A DNA stretch of 64,000 nt from a virus, in the IMG/VR virus record IMGVR_UViG_3300043418_000120, positions 1-64,000 of that record; one strand, written 5' to 3'. Within the stretch, counting starts at the first letter, position 1, and each line of letters opens with the position of its first letter. Position numbers and translations under genes: made by a program. Below, one piece after another: positions 40,210 through 52,990 of the stretch. The notes beneath the pieces are model-generated. The model was not told the origin of the DNA and made no database searches. It saw only the letters and a program-made list of their open reading frames with translations.

Positions 40210-40685
40210 TGTTGAAAGAGATGCAAAAGTTTGCTAAGCACATGCATGGCACCTACGTGGCGTTTCAAGTTGATGCTCTAAGCGCAGCCAAACTTGATCA
40301 CTTCTGCCAGACACGATTGGGTTTAGGTCATGACAGAGTTCACGCTAGCAAGTACCACACAACAGTCATCTACTCACGTAGCCCTGTTCCTGATGCTGAA
40401 GACTTGTCCGAAAAGACAAGCGCATGGGGGAAGGCTATCGGCTATGACATTTTCCAAACAAACGGCGAGCGCTGTCTTGTTATGCTTGTTGAATGCGAAG
40501 ATGCTACTAACCTAAATGCTGCTCTCGGTCGTCGTGGTGCAACTTCAGACTTTCCAACATACAATGCGCACATCACATTGAGCTATGCATTCAACGGCGA
40601 CGAGCGCGAGCTGCCTTTGCCTGACTTCAGAATCACATACGATCGTGTTGTCGTTGAACCACTTGACCCTTTACACATAGATTAA
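40206..40685 (+). CDS. acb1: 2H phosphodiesterase, Acb1-like anti-CBASS protein
   Basis: 159 residues. Two H-x-T motifs, KYHTTVIYSR (His51) and YNAHITLSY (His122), with the HGTYVAFQVD start and spacing of about 70 residues, match the 2H phosphoesterase family that includes T4 gp57B. That protein, Acb1, cleaves cyclic oligonucleotides made by CBASS defence enzymes. The size (T4 152) and motif flanks fit well. Early expression from the promoter at 39531 suits an anti-defence function. The identification is by motif; activity is inferred from the family. Confidence 0.75.
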   Translation: MMLKEMQKFAKHMHGTYVAFQVDALSAAKLDHFCQTRLGLGHDRVHASKYHTTVIYSRSPVPDAEDLSEKTSAWGKAIGYDIFQTNGERCLVMLVECEDATNLNAALGRRGATSDFPTYNAHITLSYAFNGDERELPLPDFRITYDRVVVEPLDPLHID

Positions 40686-40687
40686 AT

Positions 40688-40900
40688 ATGAATGAAATTA
40701 AAGAACAACTGCAAGAGTTACATGTAGCAGTAGTGGAACTTAAGACTGAGCGTGATCAACTACGCGAGCGTGTTGCTTATCTTGAGAAGCTCAACCTAAT
40801 CCTTGCTGAGAAACATTCAACATACCCATCACCATCCCCACTGGGACCAAACACTTGGCCAACACAACAGCCATGGGTTGTAGGTCCAACAATTGACTAA
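40688..40900 (+). CDS. Small coiled-coil protein
   Basis: 70 residues. Residues 1-42 (MNEIKEQLQELHVAVVELKTERDQLRERVAYLEKLNLI, quoted in part) form a leucine-rich heptad coiled coil, and the rest is a Pro-rich tail. It starts two bases after the Acb1-like gene, so it is probably co-transcribed. A partner or oligomerising function is possible; no family recognised. Confidence 0.6.
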   Translation: MNEIKEQLQELHVAVVELKTERDQLRERVAYLEKLNLILAEKHSTYPSPSPLGPNTWPTQQPWVVGPTID

Positions 40901-40907
40901 GGAAACT

Positions 40908-41117
40908 ATGACAGATCCAGTATACATTGATCCACTTGTTCGTCTCAAACAAGAGCGCGAATTGAAGAAGGCAAAGAAGAAAGTCCGCAAGGAAGTTGCC
41001 TTGAAAGTAGGAGACAAAATGGCACGCAAGCTCGTGAAGCATGCGGCTAACAAAGTAATGAGCGACGCTTCATTTGAACAACGCATCATGAAGAAATCAG
41101 CAGCGAGAGGTGGATAA
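40908..41117 (+). CDS. Small basic protein
   Basis: 69 residues from the ATG at 40908 (AAGGA five bases upstream, preferred to TTG 40893). It is strongly basic and helical (ELKKAKKKVRKEVALKVGDKMARKLVKH, quoted in part), so binding to nucleic acid or to an acidic protein is plausible. No motif is recognised. It overlaps nothing downstream but is one base from the next start. Confidence 0.6.
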   Translation: MTDPVYIDPLVRLKQERELKKAKKKVRKEVALKVGDKMARKLVKHAANKVMSDASFEQRIMKKSAARGG

Positions 41118-41118
41118 G

Positions 41119-41415
41119 ATGACGATTATGATTTTACATTTGATCACAGGTGAAGATGTCATCGGTGATGTAACACCAGCCAACGGTGTTCTTGAAGTTA
41201 AGAACGCATGTACCATTGGACCACGTCAAGATCCAAACACAGGGCAAGTGAAGATTGGCCTTGCACCCTTTAATCCTTACACTGAAGACAAGACGATTGT
41301 GATTTACCCACATGCTGTTGTGTCCGATGCTGTTCCTGCTCAGGAAATTGTCAACTCATACAATCAAGTGTATGGCGCTGGCATTCAAGTTGTGAGTTCA
41401 CTCGCAGGTCTATAA
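41119..41415 (+). CDS. Sm-like small beta-barrel protein
   Basis: 98 residues from ATG 41119 (AGGTGGA upstream; GTG 41110 is an alternative). The start TIMILHLITGEDVIGDV, the short NACTIGPRQDP loop and LAPFNPYTEDKTIVIYPHAVV fit the Sm-like fold described from cyanophage-type proteins (TGEDVIGDV in Sm1, the I-x-I-x-x-x-x-V strand in Sm2). A comparable protein is encoded after uvsW (31082). A role in RNA metabolism is inferred only. Confidence 0.55.
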   Translation: MTIMILHLITGEDVIGDVTPANGVLEVKNACTIGPRQDPNTGQVKIGLAPFNPYTEDKTIVIYPHAVVSDAVPAQEIVNSYNQVYGAGIQVVSSLAGL

Positions 41416-41418
41416 GCA

Positions 41419-41742
41419 ATGGCTAATGTCTATCGTCTAAAAGAATGTCCGCATTGTGGTGCTGAGCATCGCAAGCGTGGACCCTACTGTTCTCGTAGTT
41501 GTGGCAACCACCGCACATATACTGAATCGCAGAAGGAAGACAAACGTGTTGCAATGCGCAAGTTTATGAACAGTGAGAATGAAGTTGCTGAGAAGCAACG
41601 CTGGCTGATCACACAACAACGCAGAGCTGACGGACGGACAGAGGCTGAGCTCTACGCAGAGATGGAAGAGTATGGTGTGATACCACCAACGGATATAGGC
41701 TTCAGCTACGAGAAGGACGCTGACGGCGATATCTGGTTCTAA
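41419..41742 (+). CDS. Zinc-finger protein
   Basis: 107 residues. CPHCGAEHRKRGPYCSRSCGNHR near residues 9-31 is a two-pair Cys zinc ribbon of the sort found in small HNH and phage regulatory proteins, but no HNH core follows. The C-terminal part is a charged helix ending IGFSYEKDADGDIWF. It is the last gene before a cassette terminator. Function unknown. Confidence 0.65.
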   Translation: MANVYRLKECPHCGAEHRKRGPYCSRSCGNHRTYTESQKEDKRVAMRKFMNSENEVAEKQRWLITQQRRADGRTEAELYAEMEEYGVIPPTDIGFSYEKDADGDIWF

Positions 41743-41764
41743 AACCAAAGACTTACATTTCGAT

Positions 41765-41828
41765 AACCCTACCATGTGTAGGGTTTTTCACATTGGTGCT
41801 TGCCTTTAATTCCGAACAGAGGTATAAT
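41765..41828 (+). promoter_or_regulatory. Cassette: terminator hairpin plus early promoter
   Basis: Hairpin AACCCTAC, loop CATGT, GTAGGGTT and T-run at 41765-41788, then TTGCCT (41800), a 17-bp spacer beginning TTAATTCCG and TATAAT (41823-41828). TCAATCTATTGA overlaps the expected transcription start. Confidence 0.85.
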
Positions 41829-41858
41829 CAATCTATTGAAAGACGAAAAGGATACGAT

Positions 41859-42275
41859 ATGATGAAGGCTGGCGTTTACTACATTGGTGACCTGTGCTAC
41901 GTGATGCATGATTGCTGGGATGAGTTCTGTGACCTTACTATCAAAGGCAATGAGTGCCTGAGTGGTGAGTTTACTATGAAGGATGGTCGCCGTTTCGCTA
42001 CCTACTCTACCAAGTATGGTGATGGTTTGTACCCAACAAACGTAGGCGCTAACCTTTCCGTTGATGCTGGTCTGATTGGTTGTATCCTTGTCAGCGACAT
42101 CCGTGACCCTGAAGCTACCGAAGCAGCAATGAAGTCTCTCGGCACTATCGTCGAGTTCGGTACTGACTTTGTTACTGGTGGTTCGCGCGAGACAGGTACA
42201 ATACAGTTTGGTCGTGTTGTTGTTGAGACAGGCGATTTTTATGATGATGAGGAAGATGAGTATGACTGCGAATAA
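41859..42275 (+). CDS. Conserved phage protein of unknown function
   Basis: 138 residues from the ATG at 41859 (AAAGGA upstream), a start compatible with the promoter at 41800; earlier in-frame codons lie upstream of the transcript start. KAGVYYIGDLCYVM near the N-terminus, followed by a glycine/aspartate-rich beta region, matches a family seen widely in phages of several hosts, without known function. The C-terminus is strongly acidic (DDEEDEYDCE). Confidence 0.7.
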   Translation: MMKAGVYYIGDLCYVMHDCWDEFCDLTIKGNECLSGEFTMKDGRRFATYSTKYGDGLYPTNVGANLSVDAGLIGCILVSDIRDPEATEAAMKSLGTIVEFGTDFVTGGSRETGTIQFGRVVVETGDFYDDEEDEYDCE

Positions 42276-42582
42276 TGCGTTGATGGTTGAACAACTTGGT
42301 CTGTTGGCTGAGAAGGGCGTGATGGTTCAAATGCGCAGCCGATTTGAGTATGAGGTGTTTGGTTTCTACAAGAGCAACAGCGTTGTTGTGAACCTGCCTA
42401 TGCAAACAGTAACAGCACGCTACGGTGAAGTTGATGAGTTTGCTGCTGAAGGTTTGTTTGATGCTTTGGTTGAACTCAACTACAGCTGGTGGTCGCGCAG
42501 CCATGCACGCTACGATGGTTGGTCCCGCCCATCCCCTGAGTGGGAAAAGTTGTTCGAAGCTGCTGGTCTCGAGGTCGATTGA
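42262..42582 (+). CDS. Unrecognised early protein
   Basis: 106 residues from ATG 42262, overlapping the previous gene by 14 bases. It reads as an alpha/beta protein, with MVQMRSRFEYEVFGFYKSNS and a Trp-rich end (SWWSRSHARYDGWSRPSPEWEKL). No family recognised. Promoter 42579 overlaps its end. Confidence 0.6.
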   Translation: MTANNALMVEQLGLLAEKGVMVQMRSRFEYEVFGFYKSNSVVVNLPMQTVTARYGEVDEFAAEGLFDALVELNYSWWSRSHARYDGWSRPSPEWEKLFEAAGLEVD

Positions 42583-42607
42583 CTTTAATTAGCAGCTCAG
42601 GTATAAT
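42579..42607 (+). promoter_or_regulatory. Early promoter without a stem-loop
   Basis: TTGACT, 17-bp spacer TTAATT...CAGG, TATAAT (42602-42607). The -35 element overlaps the end of the preceding coding sequence, so no terminator fits here. Confidence 0.8.
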
Positions 42608-42630
42608 TGTTGATCATTGAAAGGATTGTT

Positions 42631-42942
42631 ATGTCTAATTTTATTACTTTTTCCACAAATACCACAGCTGTTCCTGTAGAGGCTGGTGGAATTTTGAATG
42701 GGTATAAGCTCAACTCTATTCTACACAGTGGTCGCAAAATTTCTCTAGCGCAGAACGCCTATTACTACATCCCATACACAAACACAATTGTGTCTTTCCG
42801 CGGATCAAAGGCCAAAGCGATGGTTCGTAGCGATGACGGCAAGTACAGTTTCATCGAGAAATTTACTGACCGCAAAGGGCACTGGACTTTTAAGGTTGAT
42901 TCAGCCATGGTTCACGAGGCTGCGCTGACCATGTTCCGATAA
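42631..42942 (+). CDS. Unrecognised early protein
   Basis: 103 residues from ATG 42631 (AAAGGA upstream). The first half is beta-rich (FITFSTNTTAVPVEAGGI, GYKLNSILHSGRKISL). The rest includes NTIVSFRGSKAKAMV and SFIEKFTDRKGHWTFKVD. No motif known to me. One-gene unit between two promoters; its TAA is the first codon of the following cassette. Confidence 0.6.
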   Translation: MSNFITFSTNTTAVPVEAGGILNGYKLNSILHSGRKISLAQNAYYYIPYTNTIVSFRGSKAKAMVRSDDGKYSFIEKFTDRKGHWTFKVDSAMVHEAALTMFR

Positions 42943-42990
42943 CCCTACAGCTCGTAGGGGCTTTACTTTAATTCGGATTCGAGGTATAAT
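42943..42990 (+). promoter_or_regulatory. Cassette: terminator hairpin plus early promoter
   Basis: CCCTAC, loop AGCTC, GTAGGG at 42943-42959, then TTTACT (42962), spacer TTAATTCGGATTCGAGG, TATAAT (42985). The leader TCAATCTATTG follows. Confidence 0.88.
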
Positions 42991-43022
42991 CAATCTATTG
43001 TGAGAAAAGAAAGGTTTTGATT

Positions 43023-43229
43023 ATGGGTTTCGAGTCTGTTGTGTTGGCTAAGGTTCGTGAAGTGTTGGTTGCTGTTCCTAGCTACCAAGCAAATTTTGTG
43101 AACGGTACGCTGTTCGTTGAGTGCTCTGTCCGTGACGCTATCCGTCTCGAGACAGCTCTGCTTGAGAAATTGCGCTGCGGCATCATCCTGAGTCGCGTTG
43201 GTGATGAGTCTGCGTTTGACTTTGTTTAA
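43023..43229 (+). CDS. Small early protein
   Basis: 68 residues from ATG 43023 (AAAGG nine bases upstream). It reads MGFESVVLAKVREVLVAVPSY, then NGTLFVECSVRDAIRLETALLEKL. A small alpha/beta domain is likely; no family recognised. Confidence 0.6.
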   Translation: MGFESVVLAKVREVLVAVPSYQANFVNGTLFVECSVRDAIRLETALLEKLRCGIILSRVGDESAFDFV

Positions 43230-43238
43230 GGGGCTGGT

Positions 43239-43385
43239 ATGAGAGTTTCGTTTCGTAATGTCCGTATCAATGAACTGTTCAGCTGCAATGGTAACCTATA
43301 CTACAAAAAGTCAAGCCGTACAGCTGTGCTGATGTCAGCCAACCGTACATTCTATATGTCACAACATGACAACTGTCTGATCTGA
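43239..43385 (+). CDS. Small basic protein
   Basis: 48 residues with AAGGGG upstream. The sequence starts MRVSFRNVRINELFSCNG, contains GNLYYKKSSRTAVLM and ends SQHDNCLI. It lies nine bases after the previous stop, so probably in the same operon. The pattern of a short beta hairpin with Asn-Tyr-Tyr-Lys-Lys is seen in small phage proteins but not named. Confidence 0.6.
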   Translation: MRVSFRNVRINELFSCNGNLYYKKSSRTAVLMSANRTFYMSQHDNCLI

Positions 43386-43392
43386 GGTGCTT

Positions 43393-43656
43393 ATGACAAT
43401 CAAAATGTATAAGAGTGAGTATGTGAGTAAAGAAGAAACCGCTCGCCAATGTGTTGTCGCTGAACAAGTGGCCATCGAGTTTCAGGAAGAGTTTGCTGCT
43501 ATGTGTGAGAAGTATAAGGTAGAATTCTCTGTTCGTGAAAAGACTAGCGGATATAGCACCTACGTGGAAGGCATTGATGTCGACTTTGATGGCATTTATG
43601 AAGATGGCACAACCGTTCGTCCATACTTTACCATTCAGTTTGGTAGCACAATCTAA
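43393..43656 (+). CDS. Unrecognised early protein
   Basis: 87 residues from ATG 43393 (AGGTG upstream; GTG 43387 is possible). Helix EETARQCVVAEQVAIEFQEEFAAMCEKY is followed by a beta region with a VDFDGIYEDG loop. No family recognised. It is in the operon started at 42962. Confidence 0.6.
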   Translation: MTIKMYKSEYVSKEETARQCVVAEQVAIEFQEEFAAMCEKYKVEFSVREKTSGYSTYVEGIDVDFDGIYEDGTTVRPYFTIQFGSTI

Positions 43657-43665
43657 GGAATCAAA

Positions 43666-43848
43666 ATGAACATCCAAACTGTAGCAGAAAATCTGCGTAA
43701 CACAATCGCGGGCAAGAAGGCGATGTTGGCTGGCATCAAAGACAACGGCAAAGAAGGATATTATATACTGTCGCATATGCTGAGTATGAACATTGAAGAG
43801 TTGGAGAAAATTCTGGCTGATGTTGACCAATGTTTGGTGGAGCAGTGA
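43666..43848 (+). CDS. Small helical protein
   Basis: 60 residues, predicted all-helical (VAENLRNTIAGKKAMLAG, then MLSMNIEELEKILADVDQC), with AAGGAATC upstream. The stop overlaps the HNH gene start (TGATG), indicating coupled translation. Function unknown. Confidence 0.6.
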   Translation: MNIQTVAENLRNTIAGKKAMLAGIKDNGKEGYYILSHMLSMNIEELEKILADVDQCLVEQ

Positions 43849-44186
43849 TGACCCTGACTGACTTGGTCTCTCGTCAAGGCAACAAGTGCTACTACTGCAG
43901 TTGCGAAATGAATCAGACTAAGAAGTCACCGAATCAAGCTACGGTTGAGCACTTGGTTGACAAGTGGTCTAGCCCAAAGCATCGTAAGATTGAATGCACT
44001 TCTAACCTAGTCGCTGCTTGCTTTCAGTGTAACAATAGTCGTGGTGCGGCTCGTAATAGAATTGCTCGCGACTACTACAAAACGCAAGCTGCCAAGAAGA
44101 GTATGAAACTGGCGGTGGCGTCTATCTCGAGTCGTCAATTGTATTCGTTGTTTGGTCCAGTACCACAAACCCTATTCGTCATGTAA
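43848..44186 (+). CDS. HNH endonuclease domain protein
   Basis: 112 residues from the ATG at 43848 that overlaps the previous stop. CYYCSCEM (Cys14, Cys17), TVEHLVDK (His35), NLVAACFQCNNSRG (Asn53, Cys58, Cys61) form an HNH core with a structural zinc knuckle. It resembles phage-encoded HNH proteins embedded in early operons rather than intron homing enzymes. The RNA ligase gene follows after nine bases, suggesting co-expression. Confidence 0.78.
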   Translation: MTLTDLVSRQGNKCYYCSCEMNQTKKSPNQATVEHLVDKWSSPKHRKIECTSNLVAACFQCNNSRGAARNRIARDYYKTQAAKKSMKLAVASISSRQLYSLFGPVPQTLFVM

Positions 44187-44195
44187 GGAATTGAA

Positions 44196-45221
44196 ATGCG
44201 TAAACTTGCTAAGATTGTTAAGATCGACAACCTGACACCCATCGATGGTGCTGATAAAATTGAAGTTGCCACTGTTGGTGGTTGGAAAGTTGTAGCCCAG
44301 AAGGGTCTATACAACGTTGGCGACTTGGCTGTGTATTTTGAGATTGACTCATGGATTCCAACCGAGTTGGCACCATTCTTGTCTAAGGGCAAAGAGCCTC
44401 GTGAGTTTGAAGGTGTCAAGGGCGAACGCCTAAAGACTATCAAGCTGCGTGGGCAGTTGTCACAAGGTTTGTTGATGCCACTGTCTGAAGTAATTTCTAT
44501 TGCTGGTTGCTGGTCACCAATCCAAGAGGGCGATGATGTTACAGAGTACTTGAACATCAAGAAGTGGGAAAAGCCAATGAATGCTCAGTTGGCAGGTGTG
44601 TGTCGTGGTAATTTTCCATCACTGATTCCAAAGACTGATCAAGAGCGTGTTCAAAACTTGAAGAAGGAAATTGGTGCTGCTCAGAACGATGTGTTTGAAG
44701 TCACTGAAAAGTGCGAAGGTTCTTCAATGACTGTGTACCAAATGGTTGTTGAAGGTGAGATGACATTCGGTGTGTGTTCACGTAACATGGACTTGAAGGA
44801 AACTGAAGGTAACTCTTTCTGGGCTACTGCGCGCAAGGATGACATTGAAGCAAAGATGCGTGCTGTTGATGAGTTCTGGTCATTCGCAATTCAAGGTGAG
44901 TTGATTGGTCCAGGCATTCAAGGTAACATCTATGGATTGAAAGAACCAAAGTTTGTTGTGTTTGATGTGTACGACATTCAAGCAGGTGAATACTTGCCAC
45001 CAGATGCTCGTCGTGAGTTGATTGCTGGTATGGGGTTGAACCATGTGCCAGTGTTGAACGAACGCTATGTGTTGACTCAAACCGTTGATGAGATCATCGC
45101 TTCTGCTGAAGGTCAATCGACCATTGCCAAGGTAGAGCGCGAAGGTATTGTGTTCAAGCAAGCCATGGGTGGATTCTCATTCAAAGCGATCAGCAACGCC
45201 TATCTTTTGGGCGAAAAGTAA
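44196..45221 (+). CDS. RNA ligase, DraRnl (Rnl5/DRB0094) type
   Basis: 341 residues. The N-terminal about 110 residues form an OB-fold module (KLAKIVKIDNLTPIDGADKIEVATV, then GDLAVYFEIDSWIP). The nucleotidyltransferase domain has motif I EKCEGSS (catalytic Lys172), FGVCSRNMDLKE (motif III region), FAIQGELIGPGI, EGIVFK (motif IV) and FSFKAISNAYLL (motif V). This order is that of the DRB0094-type RNA ligases that seal nicked RNA duplexes. In a phage it could repair tRNAs or rRNA cut by host defences; that is inference. Confidence 0.88.
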   Translation: MRKLAKIVKIDNLTPIDGADKIEVATVGGWKVVAQKGLYNVGDLAVYFEIDSWIPTELAPFLSKGKEPREFEGVKGERLKTIKLRGQLSQGLLMPLSEVISIAGCWSPIQEGDDVTEYLNIKKWEKPMNAQLAGVCRGNFPSLIPKTDQERVQNLKKEIGAAQNDVFEVTEKCEGSSMTVYQMVVEGEMTFGVCSRNMDLKETEGNSFWATARKDDIEAKMRAVDEFWSFAIQGELIGPGIQGNIYGLKEPKFVVFDVYDIQAGEYLPPDARRELIAGMGLNHVPVLNERYVLTQTVDEIIASAEGQSTIAKVEREGIVFKQAMGGFSFKAISNAYLLGEK

Positions 45222-45274
45222 CCCTACCATCAGTAGGGTTACTGGTTTACTTTAATTCAGAACTCAGGTATAAT
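45221..45274 (+). promoter_or_regulatory. Cassette: terminator hairpin plus early promoter
   Basis: ACCCTAC, loop CATCA, GTAGGGT (45221-45239), TTTACT (45246), spacer TTAATTCAGAACTCAGG, TATAAT (45269). The TAA of the RNA ligase gene runs into the stem. Confidence 0.88.
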
Positions 45275-45300
45275 CAATCTATTGAAACAAAGGAATGATC

Positions 45301-45666
45301 ATGAACGACAACTACAGTATCCCCTCCTATACATTTGCTCGCTCTGGCGCTATCACCCGCGAGTTTCTGGCCAACTTACCTTTCCGTCTCTTCAAGGACA
45401 GCGACTATCTGGCATTCGCAGGCGTCGAGAGCCCAGTACCTTTGATCGCTGAGGTCGAAGGCGACTTTGAAAGTTTCATCGTGATTGTTGACGGTGATAC
45501 TGCTGAGATGTACGTTGCCAATGAAGATGGTGCATTTGATATTGTGGATGCTGTTGGGTTCATCTCAGAGTTACAGTATGGCCCAACCAAGGATGAGTTG
45601 ATTCGTGAAGCGCGCATCAAAATCAATGAGTTGCAAGCAACCCTGCGTAAACTGGAAGCCCAATGA
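45301..45666 (+). CDS. Unrecognised acidic early protein
   Basis: 121 residues from the second of two ATGs (45301), the one at normal spacing from AAAGGA. Beta-rich centre (VPLIAEVEGDFESFIVIVDGDTAEMYVANEDGAFDIV, quoted in part) and a C-terminal amphipathic helix (ELIREARIKINELQATLRKLEAQ). No family recognised. It overlaps the next gene by ATGA. Confidence 0.6.
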   Translation: MNDNYSIPSYTFARSGAITREFLANLPFRLFKDSDYLAFAGVESPVPLIAEVEGDFESFIVIVDGDTAEMYVANEDGAFDIVDAVGFISELQYGPTKDELIREARIKINELQATLRKLEAQ

Positions 45667-46004
45667 TCTACGCATCCTTCAAGAAGCGCAAGCCACGTAA
45701 ACCCAACGCGGAACAGCGTGCTCTAGCAAAGTCATGGTCTGACATGGTAGCGCAGTACGAGCCCAAGAAACCTATTGCCCCATCCAAGGACACAGGATTC
45801 GTGTACAAGCTCAATGCGCCTGTTGGTCGCGAGACGCCTAAGATCCCATCACGCGCAACGGCTGGTGGTAATGGTTCATGGCGTCCCAACCCTGTCTACA
45901 CAGGCGACAAGATCAAGGGCATCGGCACAATGCACAAGAGCAACGCAGTGCCAGTGTTCAGCGACGAGGAAGCCCAAGACATTGCTAAGATGCGCCGAGG
46001 ATAA
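45663..46004 (+). CDS. Conserved basic phage protein
   Basis: 113 residues. The pattern KKRKPRKPNAEQRALAKSWSDM, then FVYKLNAPVGRETPKIPSRATAGG and PVYTGDKIKGIGTMHKSNAVPVF is a recurrent layout of a small phage protein without function (Pro-Gly-Arg-Glu near IPS, a YTG motif and a terminal MHKSN-AVP). Basic N-terminus. Coupled to the preceding gene. Confidence 0.7.
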   Translation: MIYASFKKRKPRKPNAEQRALAKSWSDMVAQYEPKKPIAPSKDTGFVYKLNAPVGRETPKIPSRATAGGNGSWRPNPVYTGDKIKGIGTMHKSNAVPVFSDEEAQDIAKMRRG

Positions 46005-46052
46005 CCCTACTGTTCGTAGGGGCTTTACTTTAATTCGGATTCGCGGTATAAT
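46003..46052 (+). promoter_or_regulatory. Cassette: terminator hairpin plus early promoter
   Basis: AACCCTAC, loop TGTTC, GTAGGGG, then TTTACT (46024), spacer TTAATTCGGATTCGCGG, TATAAT (46047). The leader has TCAATCCATTGA. Confidence 0.88.
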
Positions 46053-46082
46053 CAATCCATTGAAACAGAAAAGGAAAACAAA

Positions 46083-46277
46083 ATGACTAAGCTCCCTCGC
46101 AACGTGGTGTCTGTAACTGTGGTTGATGGCGTAACCTTTACCGTGTACAAGTCTCGCAAGACTCCAAAGTCTACATGGCGCTCTGGCAAAGTCAGCCGTA
46201 CTGGTTCAACAGGTACATCTGGTTTTGCTATTGGTTTCCCAAGCCGCTCTACCATCGGTGGTGGTGTTCAGGAATGA
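46083..46277 (+). CDS. Small Ser/Thr/Gly-rich protein
   Basis: 64 residues with AAAAGGA upstream. Beta start (NVVSVTVVDGVTFTVYKSRKTPKSTW) and a Ser/Thr/Gly C-terminus (RTGSTGTSGFAIGFPSRSTIGGG). No family recognised. It overlaps the next start by ATGA. Confidence 0.6.
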   Translation: MTKLPRNVVSVTVVDGVTFTVYKSRKTPKSTWRSGKVSRTGSTGTSGFAIGFPSRSTIGGGVQE

Positions 46278-46453
46278 CTGTGGGTACAGACAACCAAACC
46301 TATGAGCAAGGCGTTGCCGATGCTCAGCTTGACCTGATGGGTGGTTGGGTTGATGAACACACAACAGCACAGGAAGTCATAGACCAACTGACAATTGCTG
46401 TTGGTGCCAGCCAAGAGTACATTCAGGGCTACTTGACTGTGGTTGGCGTATAA
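46274..46453 (+). CDS. Small acidic protein
   Basis: 59 residues from ATG 46274, which overlaps the previous stop. Helical: YEQGVADAQLDLMGGWVDE, then EVIDQLTIAVGASQEYIQGYL. Ends at the TAA that opens the next cassette. Function unknown. Confidence 0.6.
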   Translation: MTVGTDNQTYEQGVADAQLDLMGGWVDEHTTAQEVIDQLTIAVGASQEYIQGYLTVVGV

Positions 46454-46501
46454 CCCTACTACTCGTAGGGGCTTTACTTTAATTCGGTTCTAGAGTATAA
46501 T
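46452..46501 (+). promoter_or_regulatory. Cassette: terminator hairpin plus early promoter
   Basis: CCCTAC, loop TACTC, GTAGGG, then TTTACT (46473), spacer TTAATTCGGTTCTAGAG, TATAAT (46496). Followed by TCAATCTATTGA and AAAGGA. Confidence 0.88.
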
Positions 46502-46527
46502 CAATCTATTGAAACAAAGGAATGATT

Positions 46528-46722
46528 ATGACAGTCATCAAGGCAACTTCTTACGGTGAGATTGGTATTGACCCTGAAGCAAGTCCAGGCAACGGACAGT
46601 TCTACGCCATGACTTATGATGGCGAACTCAATGCCTGTGGTTACGAAACCGCAGAGGAAGCGTGGGCTGAACTTGAGTATGTCGCCTGTGGTATTGAAGA
46701 CGCTGTGTTGGAGGAAGTATGA
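46528..46722 (+). CDS. Small acidic protein
   Basis: 64 residues from the second ATG (46528), at the spacing used by other cassette leaders. It begins TVIKATSYGEIGIDPEASPG and has a helical acidic end (ETAEEAWAELEYVACGIEDAVLEEV). Coupled by ATGA to the following gene. Function unknown. Confidence 0.6.
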   Translation: MTVIKATSYGEIGIDPEASPGNGQFYAMTYDGELNACGYETAEEAWAELEYVACGIEDAVLEEV

Positions 46723-47003
46723 GTTTGCCAAAGTTAAAAGTCAAGCTGATGTTGCGCGATCCCAGCTGGACGCCTATCTTTGAGGATGGCAACCCATGGG
46801 CTGTGAACAAAGACAGCTACCTGATTGAGCAAGAACGCGAAGTTGAGGTTGTTCAGCTTAACCTTAACACTGGTGGCATGCGCATCCGCTGGAATGAGCC
46901 TGACGCCACCAAGAAGAAAGGCTACGTGGTTGAGAGCTGTGACATATCCATCGACCACTTCTACAAGCACTACCACATCATCCAGATGCCAGAACGCACA
47001 TAA
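46719..47003 (+). CDS. Unrecognised early protein
   Basis: 94 residues, predicted beta-rich with charged strands (LPKLKVKLMLRDPSWTPIF, then SYLIEQEREVEVVQLNLNTGGMRIRW). It ends in an aromatic segment (HFYKHYHIIQMPERT). Second gene of its transcription unit. No family recognised. Confidence 0.6.
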   Translation: MSLPKLKVKLMLRDPSWTPIFEDGNPWAVNKDSYLIEQEREVEVVQLNLNTGGMRIRWNEPDATKKKGYVVESCDISIDHFYKHYHIIQMPERT

Positions 47004-47051
47004 CCCTACTGTTCGTAGGGGCTTTACTTTAATTCGGTTCTAGAGTATAAT
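47002..47051 (+). promoter_or_regulatory. Cassette: terminator hairpin plus early promoter
   Basis: CCCTAC, loop TGTTC, GTAGGG, then TTTACT (47023), spacer TTAATTCGGTTCTAGAG, TATAAT (47046). The promoter part is identical to those at 46473 and 49330. Confidence 0.88.
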
Positions 47052-47078
47052 CAATCTATTGAAAGACGAAAGGTTGAT

Positions 47079-47363
47079 ATGTCCCGCTCTTATAACCCAC
47101 TTGATTACATCCCCCACTTGATCGTCGGCTGCATCATCGCTATGCCTCTGTTCCTGTTTGTGTGTGCTATTGATCAAGGCTTTGGCTCCGATAAGGTTTT
47201 GGACACGTACTCAGGTCAGAAGTCAGTTTGTACTCGCTACCAGTTCAATAGCAGCTTGAAGGTTACCCAGTGTGTTGAGCGTGTGATGGTTGCTGCTACC
47301 TGTAAGAAGATTGAGCACACAGGTCCCGTGTTTGGTGTGTTCACCAATGAGCGTTGCGAATAA
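47079..47363 (+). CDS. Single-span membrane protein
   Basis: 94 residues. A membrane helix occupies about residues 12-31 (HLIVGCIIAMPLFLFVCAI). The remainder is a small domain with five cysteines (SVCTRYQF, TQCVERVM, ATCKKIE, ERCE) that could form disulfides outside the membrane. One-gene unit between two cassettes. Function unknown. Confidence 0.65.
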   Translation: MSRSYNPLDYIPHLIVGCIIAMPLFLFVCAIDQGFGSDKVLDTYSGQKSVCTRYQFNSSLKVTQCVERVMVAATCKKIEHTGPVFGVFTNERCE

Positions 47364-47411
47364 CCCTACAACCTGTAGGGGCTTTACTTTAATTCGGAAC
47401 TCAGGTATAAT
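47362..47411 (+). promoter_or_regulatory. Cassette: terminator hairpin plus early promoter
   Basis: CCCTAC, loop AACCT, GTAGGG, TTTACT (47383), spacer TTAATTCGGAACTCAGG, TATAAT (47406). Confidence 0.88.
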
Positions 47412-47437
47412 CAATCTATTGAAACAAAGGGCTGATT

Positions 47438-47584
47438 ATGAAAAACTACGTGTTTGTGACTGATTCTGAACTCGCTGAATTCTTGAAAAAATTGGGTGAC
47501 CTGTCGCTTGAGGCTGATACCTTTGAAGTGGCGTTGGCTGCTTTGCGTCTTCAAACTTTGTTGAAAACCGCTTACGGTGTGTGA
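47438..47584 (+). CDS. Small early protein, paralogue of the gene at 35167
   Basis: 48 residues. TDSELAEFLKKLGDLSLEADTFE and ALRLQTLLKTAYG align with the protein at 35167-35313 with a similar length and end. Both genes sit alone behind a cassette-type promoter, so gene and promoter may have been copied together 12 kb apart. Predicted helical; function unknown. Confidence 0.78.
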   Translation: MKNYVFVTDSELAEFLKKLGDLSLEADTFEVALAALRLQTLLKTAYGV

Positions 47585-47591
47585 GTGAATA

Positions 47592-47646
47592 AACCCTACT
47601 ACCCGTAGGGTTATCGCTTTACAATAATTCGGATTGGTAGTATAAT
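47592..47646 (+). promoter_or_regulatory. Cassette: terminator hairpin plus early promoter
   Basis: AACCCTAC, loop TACCC, GTAGGGTT, then TTTACA (47618), spacer ATAATTCGGATTGGTAG, TATAAT (47641). The hairpin starts seven bases after the stop rather than in it. Confidence 0.86.
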
Positions 47647-47672
47647 CAATCTATTGAAACAAAAGGCTGACT

Positions 47673-48062
47673 ATGTACTCGTTCTCTCCACTCGCTTCTA
47701 TCCCTGCTTGCCATGATGGTTTCGGCATCATCGTTGCTCTGTGTATCTTCATCACAGTTATCGTTCTGATGAACGAAGCCGAGCTGTTCTTTCAGTGGTT
47801 CTTTGTGGCTACTGTGACATGTGTACTTGCTTACTTTGTGTCCTACAGCTGGACTGACCAGACGCCCAAAACCTTTGTGAATGAGAAGGTGACAGCTACC
47901 TTTGTCAGCTTTGAGGCTGAGGGCTACAAAGAGAAGTCAGGCAAGAGCTACGTAGACAAGCACTTCACCTATGTTGTGTACAATGTCAACGGCTCCAACG
48001 TCCTGTTGTCTGCTACTCCTGGCCAAACCTATCCACAATCTGTCATCCTGTACAAGAACTAA
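47673..48062 (+). CDS. Two-span membrane protein
   Basis: 129 residues. Two membrane helices at about residues 17-35 (FGIIVALCIFITVIVLM) and 40-58 (FFQWFFVATVTCVLAYFVSY) are followed by a soluble beta domain (KVTATFVSFEAEGYKEKSG, then VYNVNGSNVLLSATPG). One-gene unit. No family recognised; an inner-membrane location is predicted. Confidence 0.65.
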   Translation: MYSFSPLASIPACHDGFGIIVALCIFITVIVLMNEAELFFQWFFVATVTCVLAYFVSYSWTDQTPKTFVNEKVTATFVSFEAEGYKEKSGKSYVDKHFTYVVYNVNGSNVLLSATPGQTYPQSVILYKN

Positions 48063-48063
48063 T

Positions 48064-48113
48064 AACCCTACAGGCTGTAGGGGCTTTACTTTAATTCGGA
48101 ACTCAGGTATAAT
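48064..48113 (+). promoter_or_regulatory. Cassette: terminator hairpin plus early promoter
   Basis: CCCTAC, loop AGGCT, GTAGGG, then TTTACT (48085), spacer TTAATTCGGAACTCAGG, TATAAT (48108), leader TCAATCCATTGA. Confidence 0.88.
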
Positions 48114-48143
48114 CAATCCATTGAAACAGAAAAGGAAATCGAA

Positions 48144-48332
48144 ATGAAACCTACAACATGGGAAGTTTGTTTTGACTATGGCCCACATATGAGTGATACA
48201 GTAAAGGTCAAGGCCAGTTCAGAAGACGAAGCCATTGCCAAAGTAGAGAAGGCGGCAGAGAAAAAAGGTCGCAGTATTGATATCAACTGGGCGAAATCAG
48301 CAGAGCAAGGTGTGGCGGAGGAATACGCATGA
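48144..48332 (+). CDS. Small protein with DUF-like alpha/beta fold
   Basis: 62 residues: TWEVCFDYGPHMSDTVKVKASSEDEAIAKVEKAAEKKG. The beta hairpin followed by an A-[SA]-S-E-[DE]-E-A-I-A-K-[VA] helix is typical of small domains that many phages encode (for example, strands then 'A.s.deAi..a'). No function known. Coupled by ATGA to the next gene. Confidence 0.62.
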   Translation: MKPTTWEVCFDYGPHMSDTVKVKASSEDEAIAKVEKAAEKKGRSIDINWAKSAEQGVAEEYA

Positions 48333-48565
48333 TTGAGTACAAAACCGCTGAGGAAGCAATCGCAGCCAACATCAAGGCGATGGGTGATGACGGTTTCATT
48401 GAGTTTAATGGAATGAACTGCAACGACTACCTTGATGACGATGAGATGTTCTGCGATGGCTGGGATGGTGTTGATCGCCGCTGTGACTGTGGCAACCGCA
48501 GAGTCAGCTGGACAACTGAGCAGGACAGCAAGGGCAATTGGTCAGCTTACGCGGAGGCATACTGA
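48329..48565 (+). CDS. Unrecognised small protein with Cys cluster
   Basis: 78 residues. Acidic, with Cys residues at CNDYLDDDEMFCDGWD and CDCGN that could bind a metal. The N-terminal helix (EYKTAEEAIAANIKAMG) precedes them. The stop overlaps the following ATG (TGATG). Function unknown. Confidence 0.6.
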   Translation: MIEYKTAEEAIAANIKAMGDDGFIEFNGMNCNDYLDDDEMFCDGWDGVDRRCDCGNRRVSWTTEQDSKGNWSAYAEAY

Positions 48566-48804
48566 TGGTGGGTCTAAAAGAATGGTTTGAAGCCAAAGCC
48601 TATAAGCCCAAGTATGAGTTTGGTGCTCGTGTGATTGGCAAGTACCGTAAGATGCCCTTTGTTGGTTGTGTGGGCACAGATGGCATCCGTTCAGAGGAGG
48701 AAGGACCAATCCTAACTGTTACGCTGGACCTGCCTCTGATGGTAGATGGCATACCTCGAACTGTGTTAATTGTCAAGCACAAAGATGTAAAACCCTACAA
48801 GTAG
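48565..48804 (+). CDS. Unrecognised small protein ending in a cassette
   Basis: 79 residues from ATG 48565, which overlaps the previous stop (GGAGG upstream). Beta-rich (FGARVIGKYRKMPFVGCVG, then ILTVTLDLPLMVDGIP). Its last codons (KPYK, stop) are encoded by the 5' arm of the cassette hairpin (CCCTAC), so the gene ends inside the cassette. Confidence 0.6.
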   Translation: MVGLKEWFEAKAYKPKYEFGARVIGKYRKMPFVGCVGTDGIRSEEEGPILTVTLDLPLMVDGIPRTVLIVKHKDVKPYK

Positions 48805-48844
48805 TAGGGGAATGGTTTACAATAATTCGGATTGGAGGTATAAT
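48791..48844 (+). promoter_or_regulatory. Cassette: terminator hairpin plus early promoter
   Basis: AACCCTAC, loop AAGTA, GTAGGGG, then TTTACA (48816), spacer ATAATTCGGATTGGAGG, TATAAT (48839). The upstream stop codon TAG is within the loop/stem. Confidence 0.85.
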
Positions 48845-48870
48845 CAATCTATTGAAACGAAGGAATGACA

Positions 48871-49032
48871 ATGGAATACATTATACTTACTGACAGCCGT
48901 TCTGACGCCCTTGCTGGTGATGTGACTTGGCACCTGTCCCAAGGCTGGGAATTGGTTGGTGGTGTAAGCCTTTCCGTTGCTCCAGGTGGCTGGACTTCAT
49001 ACGCTCAGGCTATGAAGAAGGACTCAAAATGA
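48871..49032 (+). CDS. DUF1737-like small protein
   Basis: 53 residues, the length of this family. EYIILTDSRSDALAGDVTWHLSQGWELVGGVSLS and the terminal YAQAMKK fit the DUF1737 pattern (L...V...L..GWE..GG.S......YAQAM). Members are widespread in bacteria and phages without known function. AAGGA precedes the start and the stop overlaps the next gene by ATGA. Confidence 0.7.
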   Translation: MEYIILTDSRSDALAGDVTWHLSQGWELVGGVSLSVAPGGWTSYAQAMKKDSK

Positions 49033-49310
49033 CTGTTACAATCGCTCTGAACACGCTCCCTCCAGGCATGGAATTTGACTGGGAAGGCAACCCTCGCTAC
49101 AAGAAAAGTTGGTATCAGGTGTTTGAGTGTACCGATGCTACTGACCACTGGAGCTATGACGCCTCCAAGCTGTTGTTTGAGTCAGACTGCCTAGCCAAGT
49201 CGCACAGCTTTGCCTATGACACATGGCTCAAGGACGAGGCTAAAATCTTCACAATCATCCAAGCCTGTGATGAGTCATGCCGTGGTGGCTATGGCTTTGA
49301 TGAGTATTAA
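49029..49310 (+). CDS. Unrecognised acidic protein
   Basis: 93 residues from ATG 49029, which overlaps the preceding stop. Aromatic and acidic, with TLPPGMEFDWEGNPRY and WSYDASKLLFESDCLAKSHSFAYDTWLKDEAKIF (quoted in part). Second gene of its unit. No family recognised. Confidence 0.6.
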   Translation: MTVTIALNTLPPGMEFDWEGNPRYKKSWYQVFECTDATDHWSYDASKLLFESDCLAKSHSFAYDTWLKDEAKIFTIIQACDESCRGGYGFDEY

Positions 49311-49358
49311 CCCTACTACTCGTAGGGGCTTTACTTTAATTCGGTTCTAGAGTATAAT
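49309..49358 (+). promoter_or_regulatory. Cassette: terminator hairpin plus early promoter
   Basis: CCCTAC, loop TACTC, GTAGGG, then TTTACT (49330), spacer TTAATTCGGTTCTAGAG, TATAAT (49353). Identical in hairpin and promoter to the 46452 cassette. Confidence 0.88.
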
Positions 49359-49384
49359 CAATCTATTGAAACAAAGGAACCGAA

Positions 49385-49477
49385 ATGACTGATTATGAAA
49401 AGCCCCTTCTTGAAGACATGACTGATACCGTTGTGCTCTATGTGTTGTGTGCTATCTTGATCATGGTGGTGATGTAA
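49385..49477 (+). CDS. 30-residue membrane peptide
   Basis: The frame encodes 30 residues: a polar N-terminus (TDYEKPLLEDMTD) and one membrane helix (TVVLYVLCAILIMVVM). It is placed like every other first gene of a cassette, with AAAGGAA before the ATG, and its stop overlaps the next start (TAATG). These features support a real small gene. Confidence 0.6.
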   Translation: MTDYEKPLLEDMTDTVVLYVLCAILIMVVM

Positions 49478-49779
49478 TGTTCAGTTTCTTCAAATCCAAA
49501 CCTACCAAGCCAGCGATCCCAGAGATTATGCGTCGCTACCGCTACACATGCTCATGCGGCGAGCACACTGACCTTGAGTGGTGCCCTGCCTGTGGTATCC
49601 GTAACACATACAAGTGGAACGGCAGCAAGGGCTATCCAACCCGCGCAAAGGCGTCGCCAGCGATCACTACCTCGTCCTCGGACAGCTACGTGGACATGAG
49701 CTCGTCCTTCAGCAGCTACAGCAGCTCGGACAGCTCATGCTCTAGTGACGGTGGCAGCTGCTCGGGTGGTGGCGAATAA
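49477..49779 (+). CDS. Zinc-ribbon protein with serine-rich tail
   Basis: 100 residues from ATG 49477, which overlaps the previous stop. CSCGEHTDLEWCPACG (about residues 29-44) is a CxC...CxxC zinc ribbon. The last 35 residues are almost all Ser, Asp and Gly (SYVDMSSSFSSYSSSDSSC), a low-complexity tail with two cysteines. No family recognised. Confidence 0.62.
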   Translation: MFSFFKSKPTKPAIPEIMRRYRYTCSCGEHTDLEWCPACGIRNTYKWNGSKGYPTRAKASPAITTSSSDSYVDMSSSFSSYSSSDSSCSSDGGSCSGGGE

Positions 49780-49827
49780 CCCTACAGCTCGTAGGGGCTT
49801 TACTTTAATTCGGATTGGTAGTATAAT
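49778..49827 (+). promoter_or_regulatory. Cassette: terminator hairpin plus early promoter
   Basis: CCCTAC, loop AGCTC, GTAGGG, then TTTACT (49799), spacer TTAATTCGGATTGGTAG, TATAAT (49822). The leader is the same GTGAGAAAAGAAAGG type as that after the cassette at 42943. Confidence 0.88.
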
Positions 49828-49858
49828 CAATCTATTGTGAGAAAAGAAAGGTTTTGAT

Positions 49859-50008
49859 ATGATTCGCGTTGTTACTGGTTTCCTGATTGTGTTTGGTGCT
49901 GTGGGTGGTCTTGATAATGCTACTGACTCTAACCTGTTGCCCTTGGTAGCTATCGCGGTTGCTGGCTTGGCCATCATGGCAGCTGGTCTGAGCAAGGTGA
50001 CCAAATGA
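49859..50008 (+). CDS. Small two-span membrane protein
   Basis: 49 residues with AAAGG upstream. Two hydrophobic segments, VVTGFLIVFGAVGGL and LLPLVAIAVAGLAIMAAGL, separated by a polar DNATDSN turn. This is a recurring small phage protein type (MIR...G.LIV.GAVGGLDN). Function unknown. Coupled by ATGA to the next gene. Confidence 0.65.
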   Translation: MIRVVTGFLIVFGAVGGLDNATDSNLLPLVAIAVAGLAIMAAGLSKVTK

Positions 50009-50148
50009 GCTACATCCTGATCACTCCAACGGGCAAGACCTATACCTTCTACCTGAAGGCTGTCGCACAAACGTATCTGCAAGCCTATGGTGGTACACTG
50101 ATTACCCCTACCACTGGTAAGGTCATTTCCGAAACTGCTTGCGCATAA
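50005..50148 (+). CDS. Small protein whose C-terminus is cassette-derived
   Basis: 47 residues starting at ATG 50005, overlapping the previous stop. The N-terminus (SYILITPTGKTYTFYLKAVAQTYLQAYGG) is followed by TPTTGKVISETACA. The last 14 codons correspond to a decayed cassette hairpin (CCCCTACC...GTAAGGT) and to the promoter -35 region. The TAA stop is the TAA of the conserved TAATTCGG spacer. The same C-terminal motif occurs in the next gene. Confidence 0.65.
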   Translation: MSYILITPTGKTYTFYLKAVAQTYLQAYGGTLITPTTGKVISETACA

Positions 50149-50167
50149 TTCGGATCTAGAGTATAAT
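50139..50167 (+). promoter_or_regulatory. Degenerate cassette promoter
   Basis: TTGCGC, 17-bp spacer ATAATTCGGATCTAGAG, TATAAT (50162-50167). The -35 element is weak and is part of the preceding coding sequence. The ATG of the next gene begins eight bases after the -10 box. Confidence 0.7.
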
Positions 50168-50174
50168 CAATCCT

Positions 50175-50378
50175 ATGATGAACGAAATTAGAATTGAACG
50201 TGCCTTCGGGATGGATAAGCTGGGTCGCGATGTACCTGTGGGCTTTGACATCTATGTGGATGGCAACTGGGGCAACCGTTTCCGCACCCTGCGTGAGTGC
50301 AAGGTAGCGCTCGCTGCTGATGGCATCCAGTATAACCCTACCATGCGTAAGGTTATTTCCGAAAGTGCTTTACGTTAA
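50175..50378 (+). CDS. Small protein, possibly from a leaderless mRNA
   Basis: 67 residues (or 66 from ATG 50178). The N-terminal part (RIERAFGMDKLGRDVPVGFDIYVDGNWGNRFRTLRECKVAL, quoted in part) is an independent small domain. The C-terminus NPTMRKVISESALR is encoded by the decayed cassette and matches the end of the previous gene. There is no Shine-Dalgarno, and the ATG lies at the expected transcription start, so translation would be leaderless or from read-through RNA. Confidence 0.62.
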   Translation: MMNEIRIERAFGMDKLGRDVPVGFDIYVDGNWGNRFRTLRECKVALAADGIQYNPTMRKVISESALR

Positions 50379-50397
50379 TTCGGTTTCGACGTATAAT
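50369..50397 (+). promoter_or_regulatory. Degenerate cassette promoter
   Basis: TTTACG, spacer TTAATTCGGTTTCGACG, TATAAT (50392). The -35 element is inside the 3' end of the preceding gene. The leader (TTACTCTATTGATTTGA...) nearly matches that of the gene at 61898. Confidence 0.75.
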
Positions 50398-50427
50398 TAC
50401 TCTATTGATTTGAAAGAAAGACTGAAA

Positions 50428-51351
50428 ATGACTAATACCGTGAAGACCTCTGTTTCGTTTGATAAAGTTTCTGGCAAGTACACTGTTCAGATTGGTGATC
50501 AAAAGCCTTTCAAGACTGCCAAGAAGAGCCATATTGAATGGAAATTCAAGCAGGTCACAGGTATGGACATGGACTATGACTCTATCGTGGCTGGTGAGGT
50601 TGAGGCTAAGCAAGCCAAGGACAATAAGTTCGGTATCAACGCTCGCTTCGCCTTTGTTGAGCAGCTGGTCTCAATGGTTGCTGACGGTGTTCAGCCTAGT
50701 GCCGTGATCACTGGTGAGGGTGGTCTGGGTAAGACTCACACTGTTACTAAGACGCTGGCTGCTAAGGGCTACACCGATATCTCCGATTTGAGTGAGTTCG
50801 CAGTTGGCTCAACTCTGGCTCGTAAGTCATTCAAGACAATCAAGGGCTTCTCAACCGCAAAGGGCTTGTACCGCACTCTGTTTGAGAACAATAAGTCAGT
50901 TATCGTGTTTGACGACTGCGACGCTGTGCTCAAGGATCCAGTTGCTCTCAATGTGTTGAAGTCAGCCCTGGACAGCTACGGCAAGCGCATTATCAGCTGG
51001 AACGCTGAGTCGGGTGATGACCTGCCTCGTAGCTTCAACTTTGAGGGTCGTGTGATTTTCATCTCCAACATGGACCAATCTAAAATCGACCAAGCAATTC
51101 GTAGCCGCTCGATGATGATTGACCTGAGCATGACTACCGAGCAGAAGATTGACCGTATGGAAACAATTGCTGCTAGCCCTGACTTCATGCCTGAGTATTC
51201 AGCTGAGATCAAGCAAGATGCATTGAACCTGATCCGTGAACTCAAGGACGACGCCAAGGAAATCAGCCTGCGTACGCTTATCGCAATCAGCAAGGTGCGC
51301 GCAGCTAACAAAGAATGGAAAGCTCTGGCAGAATACATGCTGGTAGCCTAA
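50428..51351 (+). CDS. AAA+ family ATPase
   Basis: 307 residues from ATG 50428, placed 31 bases after the -10 box; longer in-frame starts lie upstream of the promoter. N-terminal about 75 residues form a separate domain. The ATPase has Walker A TGEGGLGKTH (95-104), Walker B SVIVFDDCDAV (157-167), a sensor-1 segment VIFISNMD and an arginine-rich IRSRSMMIDL. It resembles phage P-loop ATPases of unknown role rather than a known helicase or clamp loader. Its leader matches that of the VWA gene at 61898. Confidence 0.78.
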   Translation: MTNTVKTSVSFDKVSGKYTVQIGDQKPFKTAKKSHIEWKFKQVTGMDMDYDSIVAGEVEAKQAKDNKFGINARFAFVEQLVSMVADGVQPSAVITGEGGLGKTHTVTKTLAAKGYTDISDLSEFAVGSTLARKSFKTIKGFSTAKGLYRTLFENNKSVIVFDDCDAVLKDPVALNVLKSALDSYGKRIISWNAESGDDLPRSFNFEGRVIFISNMDQSKIDQAIRSRSMMIDLSMTTEQKIDRMETIAASPDFMPEYSAEIKQDALNLIRELKDDAKEISLRTLIAISKVRAANKEWKALAEYMLVA

Positions 51352-51389
51352 TCAGTACTACGTTTAACCGAAGACAGAAAGAGAATATT

Positions 51390-51590
51390 ATGAAGAATTT
51401 TGACATGACTACAGTAAGCACTAAGCTCGCTCTTGACATTATGACTGGAGTAAAGGTTGATATGGAGAAGGTACAAGAGCAGTACGCATTAGGCAACTAC
51501 ACTACAATCAAGTTGATCGATCGAGTGATTAGCAAGGTAGAGAGTCTAACAGAGGCAGAGGTTGCTCCTGAGGGCACTACCATTCAGTGA
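51390..51590 (+). CDS. Small acidic helical protein
   Basis: 66 residues from ATG 51390 (GAAAGAG upstream). Helical, with TKLALDIMTGVKVDMEKVQEQY and IKLIDRVISKVESL. It follows the ATPase gene by 38 bases and is the last coding sequence before the gene-poor RNA-rich region. Function unknown. Confidence 0.6.
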   Translation: MKNFDMTTVSTKLALDIMTGVKVDMEKVQEQYALGNYTTIKLIDRVISKVESLTEAEVAPEGTTIQ

Positions 51591-51664
51591 CACGCCGACC
51601 TGAGGCAGCTGCGCTGCTTTGTAGCGGAGTCTAATAAATAGCGTTCGCTCTCGCTACAGGCGTG
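51591..51664 (+). ncRNA. Candidate structured RNA (three-way junction)
   Basis: Starts directly after the 66-residue gene. An outer stem CACGCC (51591-51596)/GGCGTG (51659-51664) encloses GCAGC-TGC-GCTGC and a longer hairpin TGTAGCG...CGCTACA. Three nested stems within 74 bases suggest a folded RNA element, perhaps a 3' end structure or a regulatory RNA. No known ribozyme core was found by eye. Confidence 0.4.
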
Positions 51665-51753
51665 GTTGGGTGTGTTCGTCTTAACCTGTTCGGTATCTTG
51701 CACGCACAAATACCCCTTCGTAAATGACCCATCCTGCAGCATAAATGTCAAGT

Positions 51754-51778
51754 AAAACCTACGTTCGGAAGGGTTTTT
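51754..51778 (+). terminator. Terminator
   Basis: AAAACC...GGTTTT stem with short loop and T-run at 51754-51778. It ends the unit containing the AAA+ ATPase. The 90 bases before it, after the structured element, hold no gene that I can support. Confidence 0.6.
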
Positions 51779-51780
51779 CA

Positions 51781-51809
51781 TTGACTTTTTCGTCAAAAAA
51801 GACTATAAT
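51781..51809 (+). promoter_or_regulatory. Sigma70 promoter of a transcript with no clear gene
   Basis: TTGACT, 17 bp, TATAAT (51804-51809), directly after a terminator. The next 100 bases contain only a 13-codon frame (ATG 51868) without a good Shine-Dalgarno. The product may be a small RNA. Confidence 0.65.
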
Positions 51810-51911
51810 CACAGAGTGATTATGTGGTAGCCCCTTACCCCTTTGGACAGCATAAGAGTGGTTACATATGGAGGTATTGGTGGAAGCCTTGGTGGATGTT
51901 CGGAGATAGTC

Positions 51912-51940
51912 TTGACATATATTCCCATATGCTGTATAAT
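51912..51940 (+). promoter_or_regulatory. Sigma70 promoter with shared initial transcribed sequence
   Basis: TTGACA, 17 bp, TATAAT (51935-51940), then AACAGTGTTGGGTTTCT (51941-51957), identical to the start of the minus-strand RNA at 900 and one base off that at 28530. The leader is about 95 bases and includes a near repeat (ACTCCATGAGAA and ACTCCATGGAGAA) before the ATG at 52042. Confidence 0.8.
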
Positions 51941-52041
51941 AACAGTGTTGGGTTTCTGAATGATGTAATGGTAACAGTAGTCAGTAGATGACTTACTCCA
52001 TGAGAATCAGATGAACAGTTGACTGACTCCATGGAGAAACG

Positions 52042-52215
52042 ATGAAAGGTTTGGCAATGGAACTGAGCATGCTAGAGGTTATGATGTATGTAGGCAACTA
52101 CATGGATATGAATGACATGACAAGCATAAGACACATTACTGCTAGGGATCTAGAACGAATGGCAGAAGACTTGGAAATTTCCGTGGGAGCACTAGTGGAT
52201 ATACTTGACGCTTGA
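52042..52215 (+). CDS. Small methionine-rich acidic protein
   Basis: 57 residues (MKGLAMELSMLEVMMYVGNYMDMNDM at the start, quoted in part) with nine methionines. GGAGA is five bases before the ATG. The C-terminal half (RHITARDLERMAEDLEISVGALVDILDA) looks like a small helical bundle similar to the DNA-recognition part of short regulators, but that is weak. Own promoter at 51912; the next promoter overlaps its stop. Confidence 0.6.
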   Translation: MKGLAMELSMLEVMMYVGNYMDMNDMTSIRHITARDLERMAEDLEISVGALVDILDA

Positions 52216-52240
52216 CATTTATGGGAGAATCAGGTATAAT
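52212..52240 (+). promoter_or_regulatory. Sigma70 promoter
   Basis: TTGACA overlapping the preceding stop, 17 bp ending CAGG, TATAAT (52235-52240). It would drive the long chain of small genes starting at 52389. Confidence 0.85.
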
Positions 52241-52285
52241 TGCTTGACATATAAGGGGGTAGGGTCACTGGAGACGAAGTTAATT

Positions 52286-52330: not shown

Positions 52331-52388
52331 CCCAATTATTTCTTTAATCCCTAAAAAGATTCCCCTGATCCAAAGCTGAAGATTTCCG

Positions 52389-52989: not shown

Positions 52990-52990
52990 C

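Follow-up and report, generated by a model that had tools for sequence, protein, structure and literature searches.

The cassette array between small genes

The window analysed here was the opening 64 kb of a viral record 173,880 bp long (IMG/VR IMGVR_UViG_3300043418_000120; G000), in which intergenic cassettes combined a hairpin, a sigma-70-type promoter and a leader. G000 was a T4-type phage: its gp23 corresponded to phrog_138 (E = 3e-164), and sheath, terminase, scaffold and gp46 also matched T4-type families. Among named phages, its capsid protein was closest to those of Methylophilales phage Melnitz (64%) and of cyanomyoviruses (62-63%). Between gp46 (33406-35118) and a peptidase gene (61898-64213), a hyperplastic region of small genes extended over 35119..61897 (+ strand); the distance between both genes was 27 kb in G000 compared with about 330-350 bp in the relatives G003 and G004.

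An earlier note on this DNA had described composite units of stop codon, hairpin, promoter and leader that separate small genes in a T4-like phage; this was borne out, and all 14 sites that it listed existed. The pattern CCCTAC-N5-GTAGGG with up to 2 mismatches had 18 matches in the window, compared with 0.69 expected (maximum in 100 shuffles, 3). Exact matches numbered 13 in the window and 16 in the whole genome, and the reversed control pattern had 0 matches in the whole genome. An array of 11 exact hairpins occupied 7 kb (42.9-49.9 kb), each hairpin preceding TTTAC(T/A)-17-TATAAT, with the leader CAATC(T/C)ATTG behind TATAAT; according to a simple gene caller, neighbouring cassettes in the array region were separated by units of one or a few small genes. 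With loops of 3 to 8 nt permitted in the search, the loop of + strand CCCTAC/GTARGG hairpins was 5 nt in every case, as the note had stated. Of the 61 promoter-like sites in G000, 20 followed a perfect hairpin at a distance of no more than 20 nt (1.4 in shuffles).

All cassettes located below were on the + strand. Eight copies in the window had a compact layout, with 2 nt (GC) from stem to -35 box. The copy at 42943..42990 (TAA at 42940-42942) read CCCTAC-AGCTC-GTAGGG, GC, TTTACT-17-TATAAT; the others were at 46005..46052 (loop TGTTC), 46454..46501 (TACTC), 47004..47051 (TGTTC), 47364..47411 (AACCT, with a 3-nt loop possible via A-T closure), 48066..48113 (AGGCT), 49311..49358 (TACTC) and 49780..49827 (AGCTC). 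The remaining copies had 6-7 nt or more. Within the array, the copy at 45222..45274, behind an RNA ligase gene, had an 11-bp extended hairpin (AGTAACCCTAC..GTAGGGTTACT; loop CATCA) and TTTACT-17-TATAAT. The copies at 47594..47646 (loop TACCC; before the gene at 47673-48062) and 48793..48844 (loop AAGTA) had 7 and 6 nt, respectively, to TTTACA-17-TATAAT. Fusion of a TAA with the stem held at 8 of the 14 listed copies, the stop codon being in contact with the stem at 42943, 45222, 46005, 46454, 47004, 47364, 49311 and 49780. It did not hold at 48066 (stop codon 3 nt before the stem), 47594 (TGA, 9 nt upstream of the stem) or 48793 (the TAG of the upstream gene inside the hairpin).

The layout differed at three listed sites outside the array. 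Behind gp46 and one small open reading frame (ORF), the cassette at 35322..35374 had an 8-bp stem (ACCCCTAC/GTAGGGGT) and 7 nt to TTTACT-17-TATAAT. The copy at 41767..41828 was of classical form, a hairpin with T-tract (GTAGGGTTTTTC), and departed from its earlier description in that its promoter, TTGCCT-17-TATAAT, was weaker, with the -35 box 16 nt from the hairpin. At 61785..61867, before the peptidase gene, the listed hairpin was imperfect (CCCTAC..GTAAGG), and a second, longer one (AAGCCCCTACAG..CTGTAGGGGCTT) abutted TTTACA-17-TATAAT. A weakened copy missing from the earlier list (CCCTAC-CATGC-GTAAGG, TTTACG-17-TATAAT) was present at 50336..50397.

Four promoters had another common leader, AACAGTGTTGGGTTT (CTGAAT in two), right behind TATAAT and unrelated sequence after it; they were located at window positions 51941 (+) and 900 (-) and at 126838 (+) and 98650 (-) of G000:C1. 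Rfam and transfer RNA (tRNA) scans of the window returned no matches, including for 51590-53273, where ORFs were few and short and three promoter-like sites were present.

Relationships among copies and gene order

The stem and the -10 box were identical in the 11 array copies, and the leader and first half of the spacer were 90-94% alike, compared with 42% for the loop and 49% for the second half of the spacer. Copies 46454 and 49311 were identical over about 72 bp. The loops had been thought to vary freely, but are inherited in families: AGCTC, TGTTC and TACTC each occurred twice among the 11, and these 3 identical pairs exceeded expectation (0.07; p = 3e-4), also with column composition kept (0.65; p = 0.03). 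Several pairs of loop, spacer and leader variants violated the four-gamete rule, all four combinations being present, which argues for recombination of segments between copies. Judged by these patterns, the array copies are homologous, related by descent and mosaic.

Among relatives, chimeric stems occurred in G003 and G025 (CCCTAC..TGAGGG, CCCTCA..GTAGGG), in which only the four outer pairs were left. All relatives examined had a hairpin or degraded hairpin and a promoter ahead of their version of the gene at 47673-48062, and the stem before these orthologues followed lineage (CCCTAC, ACCCCAC or CCCTCA). The loop at this orthologous site was TTCGT in G018 (56118), G023 (15395) and G024 (4607), and its reverse complement, ACGAA, in G019 (12554) and G021 (3986), an apparent loop inversion. 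In G027, ACTCG (3772) and CGAGT (9837) loops followed an identical left flank. The inverted loops in both settings, the chimeric arms and the lineage-wide stem dialects hint that the hairpin could be mainly a structure for recombination or copying, with arms kept perfect and with strand switching or exchange between copies turning over the loop; cassettes would then be homogenised while genes flow through. This explanation is considered improbable.

The small genes between gp46 and the peptidase gene were present in relatives in differing orders. Over these 27 kb, the order of genes was almost wholly scrambled between relatives, with few adjacencies kept with or without a cassette. Because nearly everything was scrambled, synteny at G000 junctions alone did not separate cassette from other junctions. 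Across 15 contigs, breakpoints were more frequent at cassette junctions (20/68; 29%) than at other junctions (122/1207; 10%; odds ratio (OR) 3.7, p = 2e-5), and than at junctions within 5 kb (16%; OR 2.3, p = 0.005). With regard to the synteny check proposed in the earlier note, cassettes may mark endpoints of gene gain or loss, although the excess faded at closer range (see below). There was one clear insertion next to a cassette: upstream stop codon and cassette, almost adjacent in G017, were separated in G019 by a whole extra gene.

An HNH endonuclease-like gene (43848-44186) and the RNA ligase gene, a pair covering window 43848-45221, were adjacent in 11 of 11 relatives with both, one of a small number of pairs kept there despite the scrambling. 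A nicotinamide-nucleotide adenylyltransferase/Nudix-like gene and a nicotinamide phosphoribosyltransferase gene (window 58172-60607), apparently a nicotinamide adenine dinucleotide (NAD) salvage pair, were adjacent in 21 of 27 relatives.

Proposed function

The best explanation of the cassettes is, with good probability, a compact boundary unit of terminator followed by promoter that functions in termination and in module exchange. Each unit would be a compact border between transcription units in a variable, probably early-expressed part of the genome. The upstream transcript would end in the hairpin, whose role is most likely that of an intrinsic terminator or 3'-end structure, and a host sigma-70-type promoter, carrying its own phage-wide spacer and leader, would follow directly behind. 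Where the unit is most compact, the upstream gene would stop at the TAA before the stem, and the -35 box (TTTACTTT) would overlap the place of the U-tract. The sequence common to copies (up to about 72 bp) would offer the phage recombination system a short homology at otherwise unrelated junctions, so that exchange, duplication or loss of modules of one to three genes could leave expression intact. According to a paper on T4-like phages (PMC4177764), T4 recombination can make do with homology as short as 50 bp, and conserved intergenic signals could mediate the acquisition of foreign genes. The cassette length was comparable to that 50-bp figure, T4-like recombination in G000 being an analogy only. 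Cassettes are probably exchanged by homologous recombination, and a role in gene swapping is likely; we infer termination, early use of the promoter and cassette recombination as the cause of scrambling.

Several results weighed against this explanation. Compact copies had a poor U-tract, many cassette-free junctions were also broken between relatives, and the breakpoint excess faded when compared with junctions within 2 kb (29% vs. 20%; OR 1.6, p = 0.07). Breakpoint events were moreover not mutually independent, for which reason their excess is taken as support and not as proof. Of the earlier interpretation, copied and recombined composite units in a scrambled region were upheld, and the breakpoint excess was only moderate relative to nearby junctions.

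The scrambling of cassette-free junctions also suits a different account, in which the units are ordinary terminators and promoters made alike by selection for consensus, without a role in exchange, and the scrambling results from homing endonucleases or illegitimate recombination. A small ORF gained without a cassette (L018 vs. L026) and the HNH endonuclease-like gene at 43848-44186 agree with it. So do hairpin-free promoters of G003, G004 and G025, in which the 5' spacer TTTAATTC recurred along with some of the leader; part of the cassette similarity is thus shared promoter consensus. The identity over about 72 bp, the shared loops and the mosaic combinations, however, indicate descent and copying instead of convergence, and the chimeric stems and the breakpoint excess at cassettes also count against this account, which we judge rather unlikely.

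Insulation by each unit, as the earlier note had worded it, was not supported as regards termination. The hairpin stem had about -8 kcal/mol, and the tail GCTTTACTTTAATTC of compact copies scored an nT of 1.15, compared with 3.8 and 4.3 in the classical copies at 41767 and 108613; by the usual rules for intrinsic terminators, compact copies are expected to be weak. A consensus terminator scan called eight + strand array copies terminator-like. Because the compact tails scored weak by terminator rules, though the simple scan called eight copies, termination is regarded as a prediction. The strictly kept stem in front of a weak U-tract would be compatible with a 3'-end or processing structure, or with an obstacle that keeps ribosomes or RNA polymerase out of the promoter region, in place of a terminator. 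Classical U-tracts right behind the same stem in the clade (41767, 108613; G018 and G026a) argue that hairpins of this type are terminators, and with the consensus scan they leave a non-terminator function doubtful.

A hairpin was upstream of 14 of 16 TTTAC sites and of 5 of 38 TTGAC sites in G000 (p = 3e-7). That TTTAC had replaced TTGAC in order to act as U-tract was considered and rejected, since TTTAC promoters without hairpins were common in G003, G004 and G025; shared descent therefore explains the association of TTTAC with hairpins equally well.

Distribution and comparison with known systems

The cassette unit was seen only in related uncultured phages, as searched in IMG/VR, bacterial and archaeal genomes and named phages. 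It had no match in 84,980 bacterial and archaeal genomes, and neither the region nor the cassette consensus had a DNA-level match in named phages. The hairpin-plus-promoter pattern matched 20 IMG/VR stretches, and the records behind 16 of these, scanned whole, had 1-5 such hairpins each; among the matches listed, the IMG/VR loci shared proteins with G000 and were relatives of the phage. Hairpins upstream of the -35 box were found at 12 of 48 promoter-like sites in G003 (0.5 in shuffles) and 8 of 45 in G025 (0.7). The 61 distinct copies of the clade mostly consisted of TAA or a similar A-rich run, followed by CCC(T/C)AC, N5 and GT(A/G)GGG.

One of the closest known systems is the ordinary bidirectional intrinsic terminator, built of A-tract, GC stem and T-tract; relatives such as G018 had the same stem in the form AATAACCC(T/C)AC-N5-GT(A/G)GGGTTTT. 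Compact copies differed from them in having GC and the -35 box instead of the T-tract, with the TAA of the A-rich run as stop codon. In G018 and near relatives, a normal T-tract followed the hairpin and the promoter was about 16 nt further; the compact form may have arisen from such terminators by loss of the distance between stem and promoter.

Stenotrophomonas phage DLP6, a named phage with the same junction, had two sites of the form AAGCCCC..GGGGCTTTACT-N-TATAAT, in which the hairpin was directly before or overlapped TTTACT. They differed from the cassettes in being only two, with a longer stem, without fusion to TAA and with no array seen. The DLP6 paper (PMC5349666) gives predicted promoters and terminators, and the passages of it that were found contained no such composite.

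In RB49, many intergenic promoters had a stem around the -10 box (e.g., TTGACATGCAAAGGGAGTATGCTATAATACTCCC). The PeSL (promoter early stem-loop) of Arbiol et al. 2010 and Comeau et al. 2014 is reportedly a hairpin with an early promoter between small T4-type genes, with a proposed role in gene shuffling. The cassettes shared with it the T4-type phage, a hairpin and sigma-70-like promoter between genes and a hyperplastic non-core region, early action being predicted in the present case. The account of PeSLs is drawn partly from citations in PMC4503421, and the layout criterion was derived from RB49's own sequence; layout counts covered whole genomes or large parts of them. Of the promoter-like sites, 12 of 88 in RB49 and 4 of 48 in T4 had a hairpin bracketing the -10 box (shuffles, 0.4 and 0), compared with 2 of 61 in G000, where 20 of 61 had the hairpin upstream. 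In G000, the hairpin was upstream of the -35 box, often fused to the stop codon, with 11 copies in 7 kb. The layouts of RB49/T4 and G000 are therefore distinct, and do not differ in sequence only, as the earlier note had supposed. Phage type, kind of composite element and kind of genome region were all alike, and yet this difference in layout contradicts PeSLs of RB49 type that diverged in sequence only, which is very unlikely.

The cassette is a new layout of a known composite terminator/promoter strategy for modular gene swapping. A different and more compact layout in an uncultured clade suggests that this strategy extends beyond cultured enteric T4-like phages, and the 11 mosaic copies in 7 kb offer a natural test system for the swapping of accessory genes without loss of expression control.

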